The notes below the pieces were generated by a model. The model saw only the letters and a list, made by a program, of their open reading frames with translations, made no database searches and was not told the DNA's origin. From an uncultured Dehalococcoidia bacterium (GTDB lineage: Bacteria > Chloroflexota > Dehalococcoidia > Lucifugimonadales > GCA-2712585): DNA of 64,000 bases. The stretch covers positions 1,859,141 to 1,923,140 of the forward strand of contig OX638324.1 in the NCBI GenBank assembly GCA_951812825.1, in the 5' to 3' direction. The position numbers were made by a program, and so were the translations under genes. Shown here in pieces: positions 28,741 through 61,464 of the stretch. Within the stretch, counting starts at the first letter, position 1; every line of letters starts with the position of its first letter.

Positions 28741-29093
28741 GCGTTGGGTTACCTGTGTGGCAGTAGAGAATTATAAGGCCTTTTTGAGTTTTTCGCCAAG
28801 GTTGGGGTAGATTCTTCGTCGCTTCGTTCCTCAGAATGACATTTGGATGGGGGCTCAGGGCGACGAAAGGGTCTCTCATATGGGGAGGTAAGTTCGCGAA
28901 TCGGTCCTACGGGATGCCTGTTGGTTTGCCAGGGAATGCAGGGCGGGTTTGAAACCCGCCCCTACGGAAGAGGGGGATGGATTCCCGTCTGCACGGGAAT
29001 GACGAGGGAGGCGGGCGACCGCGAGGGTCGGCCCTGTGGGCATGAAGGGGATGGATTCCGGCTGGGGGGCCGGAATGAGGTGTGTGGTGGGGG
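28741..29093. repeat. cluster of dispersed palindromic repeats, no gene
   Basis: This gap holds several REP-like units. GTTCGCGAATCGGTCCTACGG at about 28892-28912 and GGGCGGGTTTGAAACCCGCCC-CTACG at 28941-28966 are one type. GGATTCCCGT-CTGC-ACGGGAATGACG (28979-29004) and GGATTCCGGC...GCCGGAATGA (29053-29078) are another. A short TTCGTCGCTTCGTTCCTCAGAATGAC element lies near 28813. No coding region was seen. Confidence 0.6.
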
Positions 29094-30681: not shown

Positions 30682-30795
30682 ATTCGTTTTCGAGGTCTCA
30701 GGCGTGAAAAATATTCGATTTGATTTTCGACTGGGTATCAATTCGTGCCTGAAATTATTCGTTTCAGGCGTGGGGAGTCGTTTTAAAAAAAGTTG
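30682..30795 (+). repeat. TCAGGCGTG intergenic repeat, copy 1
   Basis: Contains TCAGGCGTG at 30698-30706, its inverted counterpart CGTGCCTGA at 30744-30752 and TCAGGCGTG again at 30764-30772, flanked by ATTCGTTTT-type words. The same order and the same 20-base spacing between the second and third words recur at 61351-61464. The gap 30600-31098 also has a GGATTCC...GGAATG palindrome at 30996-31020 and no gene. Confidence 0.6.
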
Positions 30796-31098
30796 GGCGA
30801 ACGAGTCGGGTTTTGGGGGTCTGGATTACGGCCCACGACTGCACGGGGGCAGGCTTTTTGCCAGAATGACGGGATGGGGGTAGCGTGTATTTGCGCGGTG
30901 CTTTGTTAATGTGCATGGATGTTCTGAGGGGATAGTAGCAGGGTAGGAGGGTTTACGGCAATGGGCAAGATGGCAAAGGGGGAAGGGAGGGGACTGGATT
31001 CCGGCTCGGGGGCCGGAATGAGGGTTACGCAAAGATCTCCTTTGGCGAGGACACGAGAGCGTGGGTTACGAGAGAGAAGGGGATGGGTTTAGCGGGGG

Positions 31099-48188: not shown

Positions 48189-48941
48189 ATGCAGGTTCAC
48201 ATTCTGACGCTGTTCCCGGAGATGTTTCAGGGGCCTTTTGGCGAGAGCATTGTGAAGCGGGCTGTGGACAAGGGGGCGGTGGATATTCAGCTTCACAACA
48301 TTAGGGACTACACCCACGACCGGCATCGAACGGTGGACGACTACCAGTTTGGGGGGGATTCAGGGATGGTGATGAAGCCGGAGCCGATCTTTGAGGGCGT
48401 GGAGACGATTCTTGCGGGGATTACGCAGCTGGAGATGGCTACGACGCGAGTGATTCTGACTTCGCCGCAGGGGAAGCTGTTGGACCAGAAGATGGTGGAG
48501 GAGTTTGCCCGACAGAGGTACCTGATAATTCTGTGCGGTCATTACGAGGGGGTGGACGAGCGGGTACGGGAGCATCTGATTACGGACGACGTGAGCATAG
48601 GCGACTACGTGCTTACGGGTGGGGAGCTGGCGGCGATGGCGCTGACGGATGCGGTTGTGCGTCTGTTGCCGGGGGTAGTGGGGAAGCCGGAGAGCGTGAC
48701 TCGCGACTCTATAACTTCGGGGCTGCTGCAACATCCGGTGTACACGAGGCCGGCAGAATACCAGGGTTGGGCGGTGCCGGAGACGCTGCTTTCCGGCAAT
48801 CACGGGGAGATAGGGCGATGGCGTCGGGAGCGGGCGTTGGAGCGGACTTTGCGGCAGCGGCCGGACTTGCTGTCGAAGGCGGCGCTTTCTGTGGAGGATG
48901 AGGAGTTTCTGGAGGGATTGGGGTGGAAGAGGGAGGGGTAG
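48189..48941 (+). CDS. trmD: tRNA (guanine(37)-N1)-methyltransferase
   Basis: 250 aa SPOUT-family enzyme that methylates G37 and prevents frameshifting. HILTLFPEMFQGPFGESIVKRA, the knot region VILTSPQGK...LIILCGHYEGVDERVREHL, SIGDYVLTGGELAAMALTDAVVRLLPGVVG and GLLQHPVYTRPAEYQGWAVPETLLSGNH. The last 16 codons plus stop lie inside a 51-bp sequence that is repeated exactly 2654 bp downstream. In most bacteria rplS follows directly; here an insert lies between. Confidence 0.96.
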   Translation: MQVHILTLFPEMFQGPFGESIVKRAVDKGAVDIQLHNIRDYTHDRHRTVDDYQFGGDSGMVMKPEPIFEGVETILAGITQLEMATTRVILTSPQGKLLDQKMVEEFARQRYLIILCGHYEGVDERVREHLITDDVSIGDYVLTGGELAAMALTDAVVRLLPGVVGKPESVTRDSITSGLLQHPVYTRPAEYQGWAVPETLLSGNHGEIGRWRRERALERTLRQRPDLLSKAALSVEDEEFLEGLGWKREG

Positions 48942-48943
48942 GG
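48893..48943 (+). repeat. 51-bp direct repeat, left copy (end of trmD)
   Basis: Perfectly identical to 51547-51597. It covers the codons for trmD's last residues (EDEEFLEGLGWKREG) and the stop. The two copies bracket the 774-aa lipoprotein gene. Bases outside differ at once (48892 T against G; 48944 G against A). Confidence 0.93.
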
Positions 48944-48970
48944 GCGGATCGAGTTGACGGGAAGGGTGAT

Positions 48971-51295
48971 CTAGCCTTCCTGGTCTGTGAAGGGCCCCCC
49001 GTGCAGATGTCTGAATACATCCCTGATATCTTCTACTAGGTGGGGCGGCGTGTGCTCAAGGAAGACGCGGTAGACGTCCCGGTCGTCAGGCTCGTAAATC
49101 CAAGTAGAGCCTGCGCCCATTTGGAGACCTTCATTATAGAATTCAAGATAGAAAGCCCTTAGGGCTGACAGCCATGCATCCGCACCCATGACCTCGTGCA
49201 GGGTCAACAGGAAATGTTCTCCCATGCGGTAGCTGCAGGAGTCCCAAACAGACCCGCCGTCAAGCTCAATCCAGTCCTGTAGACTCTGGAGACCTTGCGC
49301 AGAGCAATAGTCCGGGAAAACAGGGTCTGGGAGATTGCCGTTGTTGGAAGTATAGTGGGCGACGACGTCTGCGCCGCCTTCTCTGAACCATTTCGGTCCT
49401 AGGAAGAAATAGTAGTGGGCCACTTCGTGAAACATGTTCCACTGCGGAACTTCGCCGTCATATTCGTCCAATTGCATGGCGAAACCTAAATGGCGACCAC
49501 GGATTCCAGACTCTGTTACGTAGAGGATCACGTGATTGAGGGGAAAGGGAATCTGCCAAAATTCCTCGGAGCCTCTGACTGCCCTTTCCATTGTTGAAAG
49601 AGTGTTTTCGACATTGAACTCGTGGTGCCCTAAGACCCAGAGTTTGACCGTGCCTGCCAAGGGCAGTTCAATTGTCTTAGTCTCAATGGTGCTGGAGTCA
49701 ATTGGGTGTTCACTGCCGGATCCCGCAACCAGATACACTCGCTCCTTTTGGTCTAAACCGTCGGCGAACCAAGGCTCCGAAAGGAAACGGCTTAGGCTTT
49801 CAGGGACACGAAATAACTCACTTTGGGTCTCCCAATCGTAGACTGAATACTCACGTGACATACGGCTAAGGTTACTAACTAGTATGATGTCAAAGAACTC
49901 AGGGGGATATGGAATCTGATCTAGAATCAGCTTGGCAATTTGAGGATTGGGCGTTTGGTCAGGAAATGCACCTCCCACGCTTAAAAGGGGACTGATGGCA
50001 TAGAGGATTTCAAAGTCCGTCAGGCCGTCAGTAACCCAAGGCGCAGAAGCCAGTTTCGCGGCAAAATCAGGTGCCTTTTCCTCTGTTGGACGCATCAGTC
50101 CGGCAACCCTACTTTCGCCTTTGGTCAATCCGTCTCGGTACCAGCCTGAGGCGGTTATCACTTCGGTTGCCGTAGGCGTGGGAATCAAGCTTTCGGAAAA
50201 TGCGTAGTGGGCGACGATATGCAGGAATTCATCGCTAGCTAGGTAGGCATCGAAATAGTCTGCCGAGGCGGAGATGACCTCGGCGTGTTCTATGGCGCCG
50301 TTGTTGTCGACGTCGTAGCGAGCGGCAAGGCTATCTTCGAAGAAAGAACCAGGTCTTGGTGAGTCTGCGCGGGTGGCAATTCGAAGGGAAGCCGCCTTTG
50401 ATCTCTTTCTGAGGATCCCGAGCTGCTGCAACAGCTTGGCCTCGATGCCATTAACGCCGTCTTGGAACCAGGGCTTGCTCACAATTCCATCGAACAGCCC
50501 ACGTTGCCTTTCCGCCATCGCTGCGAGGGTGACCACGGCATCGACGTCGGTGTCGTCGACAGTCGCGAGGAATGGCATGGAGATTATCTGGGCAGCGGCT
50601 TCCTTCGCGTTTTGGGCCAGCCCCACAAGAGTTTCCACTACCTCTAGCTCGTGCTGATCGAGACCGTCCTCCATCCAGGACTTGTTGGCCAGAGCGGGGG
50701 TGGAGTCTATACCAAGCAAGACTTCAATGTCCACGAGTTGCTGTACGACTTGCCGTTCGGCATCGTCTATGCCGTCGGCGACCCAGGGCAGGGAAGTGAT
50801 GGCGGTCGCCAGTGCGGGCTTGTTTTGTTCCAGCCAGTCGGTGTCAGATAAGCCGCTCCAGACTGCGGCGTAAGCTGGAGGAGTGGTGGTGGGCGTTGAA
50901 GTTGGATCGGGTGTCGGAGCGGGAGCAGGCGTGGGCGTCGGAGCCTGGGTAGGGGTGGGAACGATGGTAGGGCTAGGCGTAGAAACTGCGGTGGGAGTAG
51001 GTGTCAACGTTGGTGTAAACGTGGGGTTTGGGGTAGGAGTAGCTGCGGAGGGTGTCGGAGAAGTGGGAGTAGATGGGGTGGCTGTGGCTGTGGTCGGCGC
51101 TACCGTGGGCGTCGACGGCGCCGTTGTTGCAGCCGGAGATGGGACCAGGGTGGTGGTGGGTGATGGATCGAGTGCGACGGGGTTGGCTGTGGGAGATCGC
51201 TCGCCAGCCGACTGGCAGGCAAGCAGCAACGCTGCCGTGGTGAGGACGAGCATGACGATTGTCGCGATTGTGGGTACGTAGCCTATTCTATGCAT
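48971..51295 (-). CDS. large lipoprotein with HEXXH metallopeptidase-like site and W-x-x-D-G repeats
   Basis: 774 aa. Lipoprotein signal with Cys27 (TTAALLLAC), then a Pro/Thr/Ser linker (~35-140). W/F-x-x-D-G units follow, several continuing as GLxxxE, around residues 171, 207, 276, 385, 420 and 509 (PWVADGIDDAE, SWMEDGLDQHE, PWFQDGVNGIE, GWYRDGLTKGE, PWVTDGLTDFE, PWFADGLDQKE), plus a diverged copy near 242. A canonical EF-hand loop DVDNNGAIEHAE occupies 328-339. The C-terminal domain has HEVAH (His623, Glu624, His627) and WFREGGAD with Glu639 as possible third ligand. This suggests an extracytoplasmic zinc peptidase, but proteolysis is inferred only. The gene is antisense to the trmD/rplS direction and lies within the repeat-bounded insert. 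Confidence 0.8.
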   Translation of the reverse strand: MHRIGYVPTIATIVMLVLTTAALLLACQSAGERSPTANPVALDPSPTTTLVPSPAATTAPSTPTVAPTTATATPSTPTSPTPSAATPTPNPTFTPTLTPTPTAVSTPSPTIVPTPTQAPTPTPAPAPTPDPTSTPTTTPPAYAAVWSGLSDTDWLEQNKPALATAITSLPWVADGIDDAERQVVQQLVDIEVLLGIDSTPALANKSWMEDGLDQHELEVVETLVGLAQNAKEAAAQIISMPFLATVDDTDVDAVVTLAAMAERQRGLFDGIVSKPWFQDGVNGIEAKLLQQLGILRKRSKAASLRIATRADSPRPGSFFEDSLAARYDVDNNGAIEHAEVISASADYFDAYLASDEFLHIVAHYAFSESLIPTPTATEVITASGWYRDGLTKGESRVAGLMRPTEEKAPDFAAKLASAPWVTDGLTDFEILYAISPLLSVGGAFPDQTPNPQIAKLILDQIPYPPEFFDIILVSNLSRMSREYSVYDWETQSELFRVPESLSRFLSEPWFADGLDQKERVYLVAGSGSEHPIDSSTIETKTIELPLAGTVKLWVLGHHEFNVENTLSTMERAVRGSEEFWQIPFPLNHVILYVTESGIRGRHLGFAMQLDEYDGEVPQWNMFHEVAHYYFFLGPKWFREGGADVVAHYTSNNGNLPDPVFPDYCSAQGLQSLQDWIELDGGSVWDSCSYRMGEHFLLTLHEVMGADAWLSALRAFYLEFYNEGLQMGAGSTWIYEPDDRDVYRVFLEHTPPHLVEDIRDVFRHLHGGPFTDQEG

Positions 51296-51546
51296 GGCAT
51301 TTTGCGGTGTTATGAGTCGTAACGGTGAAATTCAGGTCGAAAATGCAGAGATAAGTATACCATTCGCCAATTTATGATTAGTGTTTTTCAACTTGGCCGG
51401 AAGAGGCGCACGGGAGATGGTCTACTGAGAGACGATTGAGGAGGGAGGGGAAGATGGATTCCGACTTTCGTCTGAATGACGGGAGGGGTGAACGATTCCC
51501 GGCCCTGCCCAACCGTAGGCCCTTGCTTTCGTGGGAGCGGCGGGAG

Positions 51547-51597
51547 GGAGGATGAGGAGTTTCTGGAGGGATTGGGGTGGAAGAGGGAGGGGTAGGG
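51547..51597 (+). repeat. 51-bp direct repeat, right copy (76 bp before rplS)
   Basis: Exact copy of the trmD 3' end (48893-48943), non-coding in this position. It marks the right boundary of the 2.65-kb insert. The stretch 51296-51546 just before it holds a GGATTCC...GAATGAC palindrome (51456-51480) and no gene. Confidence 0.93.
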
Positions 51598-51672
51598 AGA
51601 CCATTAGCTTGATTGGGGTGGGTTGGGGGCGGTAGAATATCCTTTTGCAGCGCAATATGGAGAAGAACGGTC

Positions 51673-61350: not shown

Positions 61351-61464
61351 TTCGTTTTGAGCGGGTCAGGCGTGGATTTTATTCGTTAGGGAAATCGAAT
61401 TCGTGCCTGAGAGGGTTCGTTTCAGGCGTGGGATTCGTTTCGAAAAATATTGGGTGTACCAAGG
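61351..61464 (+). repeat. TCAGGCGTG intergenic repeat, copy 2
   Basis: TCAGGCGTG at 61366-61374, inverted CGTGCCTGA at 61402-61410 and TCAGGCGTG at 61422-61430. The same word order, and the same 20-bp step between the last two words, as at 30682-30795. Flanking words (ATTCGTTTT, ATTCGTT, GATTCGTTT) are shared too. The gap 61324-61733 also contains a GGATTCTGG...CCGGAATGACG palindrome (61504-61529) and no gene. Confidence 0.6.

Follow-up and report, generated by a model that had tools for sequence, protein, structure and literature searches.

The 64,000-nucleotide window analyzed here (C1:1859141-1923140, where C1 is the single 2,472,204-bp contig of the host genome, G000) carries a single-gene insertion between trmD and the ribosomal protein gene rplS. 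It left a second copy of 51 bp of target sequence while keeping both neighboring genes intact, and it contains neither a mobility gene nor terminal inverted repeats. Its host is a deep-branching Chloroflexota of the SAR202 type, which appears to represent an uncultivated, marine-type lineage. We consider it probable that the insertion is recent and lineage-specific, and that it arose with a long target duplication through host DNA metabolism rather than through a dedicated mechanism. Positions given without a contig name refer to the window, except those of the 460-kb repeat scan and the integrase regions, which are contig coordinates.

A perfect repeat of the trmD end

The two copies of the repeat, at 48893-48943 and 51547-51597 on the forward strand, are identical at 51 of 51 positions and lie 2654 bp apart from start to start, and each comprises the last 15 trmD codons, the stop codon, and a few flanking bases. 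Copy 1 terminates the functional trmD, whereas copy 2 is a displaced, non-functional trmD end located at about the ancestral distance from rplS. An initial annotation, made from the sequence alone, had described exactly such a perfect repeat of the trmD end in front of rplS, and our comparison confirms it. The repeat is rich in purines (41/51, or 80%) and has one G-quadruplex motif in its 3' part. In the window as a whole, G-quadruplex motif starts number 28 on the forward strand versus 1 on the reverse strand, in agreement with a mostly positive GC skew.

A sequence search of the whole genome (E ≤ 0.001) returned these two copies only. Under a simple base model, the number of perfect 51-mer pairs expected in 2.47 Mb is ~4 × 10^-18, so a chance origin of the repeat is excluded. 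We also scanned 460 kb (19%) of the genome for repeats, the other 81% being searched by query only, and further repeats of this kind could thus exist elsewhere. Within the scanned part, the 51-bp pair is the sole perfect direct repeat of at least 40 bp spaced by more than 1 kb outside an apparent gene duplication. The remaining perfect direct repeats of at least 24 bp located more than 1 kb apart are that apparent tandem gene duplication (991512-996236), two pairs of 27-29 bp, and one 28-bp pair at 971178. The 51-bp repeat is therefore real and unusual. The duplication at G000:C1:991512-996236 has direct repeats ~4.4 kb apart and apparently involves a lipoprotein-type gene with a Pro/Thr-rich linker, in which an array of 42-bp units is expanded in one copy.

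When the sequences flanking both copies of the 51-bp repeat were aligned, no significant similarity was found outside the 51 bp on either side; a weak upstream match falls within a dispersed repeat element. As significant homology ends at 51 bp, the repeat cannot be regarded as what remains visible of a larger duplication that decayed. A larger tandem duplication of the trmD region followed by decay or deletion, which the initial annotation had put forward as one possible origin, has a parallel of sorts in the apparent tandem duplication of a lipoprotein-type gene described above, but it would require at least two further precise deletions, and the insert holds no other sequence from trmD, rplS, or their neighbors. 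With the homology stopping so sharply, we regard this origin as very unlikely.

An empty site in related genomes

In G002, a member of the same genus (JAPULR010000208), 100 bp separate the trmD stop codon from the rplS match, with no insert, and the gene order rsmH, moaB-like, trmD, rplS, priA, def, pcnB is common to this genome and the window. Likewise, the trmD-rplS spacing is 104-138 bp, with one trmD end and no insert, in three genomes of the same family, namely SAR202 cluster bacterium AC-409-J13 (G005), G003, and G006. Since trmD and rplS are adjacent in all four genomes, the comparison of gene orders identifies the insertion as the derived state in the host lineage. The initial annotation had suggested looking for an empty site in relatives, and its reading of the segment as a one-gene cargo whose entry duplicated the trmD end is supported both by these empty sites and by the position of copy 2 next to a native promoter-like site of rplS.

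The locus is occupied differently in other relatives. In G004, from another genus of the family, a gap of 797 bp between trmD and rplS (in the locus G004:C4:22663-26406) holds a different single gene, encoding fewer than 200 residues on the trmD strand, with no duplication; the trmD-rplS gap therefore seems permissive for single-gene insertions. In G001, of the same genus as the host, other genes follow trmD and no rplS is present within 5.4 kb. In a distant Chloroflexota genome (JAKQIM010000027.1), 2875 bp separate trmD from the rplS match, with no trmD-end repeat. More broadly, no repeat of the trmD end of at least 14 bp was found downstream of ~110 other trmD loci (flanks covered: ~1.5 kb at 29 loci, up to 6-8 kb at the others). 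The initial annotation had proposed a search for the same repeat flanks around other cargo; none turned up at these loci, and a 30-bp core of the repeat had 0 exact matches in IMG/VR.

The absence of any difference over 51 bp, one copy of which is non-coding, bounds the divergence since the event at ~5.7% (95%). Either the insertion is young on the scale of the 29% trmD DNA difference to G002, or the two copies have been homogenized.

Insert layout and neighboring genes

The unique part of the insertion (48944-51546) is 2603 bp long and has a GC content of 55.5%, compared to 59.8% in 460 kb of the genome. Only 27 bp lie between copy 1 and the stop codon of the antisense lipoprotein gene that forms the cargo, and the region upstream of this gene spans ~250 bp and contains two dispersed repeat elements, followed by 9 bp up to copy 2. 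No terminal inverted repeats of the insert were found, no Rfam match was obtained in the region, and an inverted-repeat scan of the region gave nothing, its fold being no more stable than those of shuffled sequences.

On the left, trmD (48189-48941, forward strand; PF01746, E 1.9e-60) is intact and encodes 250 residues, with 71% DNA and 76% protein identity to its counterpart in G002. The tail of the protein, EDEEFLEGLGWKREG, is homologous to the native G002 TrmD tail, DIEFLGKLGFKGKENSRG, and the tail encoded by copy 1 is not foreign. On the right, copy 2 adjoins a promoter-like site for rplS (TTGATT-18-TAGAAT, 51609-51638, forward strand), which is intact despite the insertion, so that both neighboring genes are preserved. 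The stop codon of copy 2 ends 77 bp before the ATG of rplS, which encodes ribosomal protein L19 (51673-52017, forward strand; PF01245, E 6.5e-44). A TAGAAT-type box also precedes rplS in G002, G015, and other relatives, a similarity judged by inspection because automatic alignment of the spacers was poor.

The cargo gene likely encodes a secreted peptidase

The sole real gene between the repeats (48971-51295, reverse strand) encodes a lipoprotein of 774 residues. The initial annotation had recognized this antisense gene correctly; the palindrome to which it also drew attention is probably one of the two REP-like, intergenic dispersed elements at 51435-51491 and 51503-51537 rather than a special structure. 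The protein combines a signal peptide and lipobox (LLAC) with a Thr/Pro-rich linker, six WxxDG repeats, an EF-hand-like loop (DVDNNGAIEHAE), and a C-terminal HExxH domain with the motif HEVAHYYFFLGPKWFREGGAD. Within the latter, HEVAH (residues 623-627; 49415-49429, reverse strand) is followed by WFREGGAD, forming a zinc-peptidase-like signature. As this HExxH plus W-x2-EGGA-type signature is kept in distant homologs (25-35% identity, from other families of the same order), the motif makes it likely that the cargo, a secreted lipoprotein, is a zinc-dependent peptidase. The protein has no Pfam, NCBIfam, or PDB sequence match above threshold, and a single-sequence structure prediction of the peptidase domain (predicted local distance difference test score, pLDDT, 43) was not used. 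More generally, WxxDG repeats and a C-terminal HExxH...WxxEGGA domain characterize a family of secreted proteins that is patchily distributed across the order and has no Pfam match.

A paralog of the peptidase domain is encoded at C1:27595 of the host genome. No ortholog of the cargo was found in the same-genus genomes G001 and G002, where the matches were weak and mostly confined to the low-complexity linker, and the best full-length homolog is 31% identical. No direct repeats longer than 17 bp surround the cargo homologs, and no relatives of the cargo were confirmed in viral contigs. Among 282 genes, the cargo ranks 36th lowest in codon score and 27th lowest in GC content at third codon positions; its composition is thus mildly atypical and roughly host-like. 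Together with the presence of host REP-like elements (resembling repetitive extragenic palindromic sequences) in the insert, this composition suggests a donor from the same or a similar lineage rather than a distant one.

Searches for a dedicated mechanism

No integrase is present in or near the insert, as the initial annotation had noted, and the nearest tyrosine recombinase, XerC/D-like in size, lies ~84 kb away. A small element lacking its own integrase might nevertheless have entered site-specifically at an attB within the trmD 3' end, using a recombinase supplied in trans by another element, as satellite and cis-mobilizable elements do; the 51 bp would then be the attachment (att) identity block, and copy 1 would derive from the element. 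The location at a gene 3' end with the gene restored and the perfect 51-bp identity would both fit such an event, and islands are known to target trmE, a gene for tRNA modification (PMC8409611). In addition, the host has four phage-type integrases as potential helpers. Three of the four lie just downstream of tRNA genes, two at tRNA-Gln (near C1:1633052 and near 489788) and one at tRNA-Ala (near 1130994). Such genes are the usual targets of phage-type integrases, and these three regions are likely integrated elements.

However, no direct repeat of at least 15 bp spaced by more than 1.5 kb was found in these three regions within the stretches covered, beyond which the elements may extend, so no active helper is evident. 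Further, the genome has no second att-like site, that is, no third copy of the repeat, and no counterpart was found in the flanks covered at ~110 other trmD loci or, as an exact match to the 30-bp core, in IMG/VR. Finally, a sequence that is 80% purine can hardly accommodate the dyad symmetry of the core sites of tyrosine recombinases. Site-specific integration, as raised by the initial annotation, is conceivable, but three of the four phage-type integrases lie beside tRNA genes and these searches gave no positive evidence for it; we consider it rather unlikely.

Transposition with a long target duplication had also been suggested, and members of the IS1634 family generate very long target duplications. 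Classical transposition is not supported: the insert has neither a transposase nor terminal inverted repeats, and the genome gave no match to an IS1634-family transposase in a search that detected the family in 5 of the 14 genomes used as controls.

A circular DNA already bearing the 51-bp trmD end, excised for example from a relative or from elsewhere in the genome, might also have integrated by homologous recombination of the Campbell type. This would yield exactly the observed product, and the host-like composition and the host repeat element in the cargo would fit a donor of the same lineage. Integration of circles is also the preferred explanation for transposed whole genes flanked by direct target repeats in Arabidopsis (PMC2869330). 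However, this route needs a donor in which the trmD end adjoins the lipoprotein gene, and none was seen in any relative, which makes it an improbable origin for the insert.

A model for the insertion

In the sequence of events that we favor, a 2603-bp piece of DNA with one complete gene and its own upstream region would have entered at the 3' end of trmD. In the process, 51 bp of the target would have been copied, leaving trmD with a complete end (copy 1) and rplS with its own upstream region (copy 2). The duplication could have arisen through staggered-break repair with fill-in, or through template switching in which the final 51 bp of the G-rich trmD end were copied a second time; a dedicated recombinase would not have been involved. 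As Ku was not found in the genome, joining would presumably have followed an alternative or replicative route. The purine-rich, G-quadruplex-bearing 51 bp are a plausible place for fork stalling or breakage, although G-rich stretches are common on the forward strand (28 motif starts in the window). Once formed, the direct repeats should allow the insert to be lost cleanly again through recombination or slippage, which would bring back the empty site.

Several points weigh against this interpretation. The nearest empty site is only 71% DNA-identical in trmD, and the ancestral single copy is thus deduced from orthology rather than from a near-identical strain. The neat restoration of the gene 3' end is also what integrase-mediated insertion would be expected to produce. 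Finally, the evidence is assembled sequence from a probably metagenome-derived genome of an apparently uncultivated lineage, which leaves room for an assembly or strain-mixture artefact. Such an artefact is nonetheless highly improbable in our view. The genome is a single 2.47-Mb contig, the unique 2.6-kb insert contains host repeats and a coding sequence that is intact and host-like in codon usage, and a long-read assembler would not be misled by repeats as short as 51 bp.

A variant that we deem unlikely is that the arrangement seen here is only one of the states of a reversible single-gene element. Lacking a recombinase of its own, the element would enter and leave the trmD 3' end through a recombinase acting in trans or through recombination between the repeats. 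If so, populations of the host lineage would vary in the presence or absence of the secreted peptidase gene.

Relation to known systems

The insert between trmD and rplS matches a rare but known class, insertion with long target duplication, with a new cargo and a new phylum. As far as the accounts in PMC1643837, PMC3031569, and PMC3874152 go, this class was found by Nobusato et al. in 2000; it was first described in Helicobacter pylori and mostly concerns restriction-modification genes. In what these accounts describe, as in the present case, a whole gene without a visible mobility gene is flanked at both ends by long direct repeats of the target, with an empty site in relatives, the nearest of which has a trmD only 71% identical in DNA in the present case; the repeats are long and variable, on the order of 100 bp, and the 51 bp seen here are of the same order. 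Unlike the examples given there, the cargo here is a lipoprotein peptidase rather than a restriction-modification gene, the host is a SAR202-type Chloroflexota, and the insertion is seen in one genome only.

The locus also bears some resemblance to the minimal mobile elements of Neisseria, in which different whole-gene cassettes occupy the space between two conserved genes (PMC3898611). Within the family, four genomes have no gene between trmD and rplS (G002, G003, G005, and G006), one has a different gene there (G004), and the host has the lipoprotein gene; these are different species or genera and not strains. Minimal mobile elements move between genomes through homologous recombination within the genes on either side, and a duplicated target is not known to be one of their defining features. 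Integrative elements at gene 3' ends, such as SGI1 at trmE (PMC8409611), share with the insert the restored 3' end and the direct repeats at both ends, but the insert lacks an integrase and any other element genes, and neither a second site nor another occupant of the site was found. Among small variable segments in bacterial species, 10-18% are flanked by direct repeats, between which deletion can leave an empty locus (PMC2884548); those repeats are mostly shorter than 30 bp, as opposed to 51 bp here.

Bacterial genomes often gain genes without any visible mobility enzyme, but the mechanism can rarely be discerned. Long target duplications are a fingerprint of one such route, which has been linked so far mainly to restriction-modification genes. 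The present case is clean and recent, with a cargo of another kind and a host from an uncultivated, marine-type lineage, and it suggests a general route that does not depend on what is carried. The trmD-rplS locus also offers a place to test for excision and for a donor in metagenomes.

Dispersed repeat elements

The first of the two dispersed elements near copy 2 (51435-51491, forward strand) lies in the 5' region of the cargo gene and is a REP-like element of the GATGGATTCCG...GAATGACGGG type, which occurs at 78-85% identity in at least 8 other places in the genome. The second (51503-51537, forward strand) ends 9 bp before copy 2. It occurs once more in the genome, near G000:C1:1998944-1998978, and none of the 19 nearest relatives has its core pattern. 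Elsewhere in the window, a 35-bp palindrome-containing element, CGTGCCTGAAA...TTTCAGGCGTGG, occurs twice (30740-30774 and 61398-61432), the two copies being 89% identical and 30.7 kb apart, and two REP-like copies of the form GGATTCCGGCT...CCGGAATGAGG are found 1.9 kb apart at 29044-29080 and 30987-31023.

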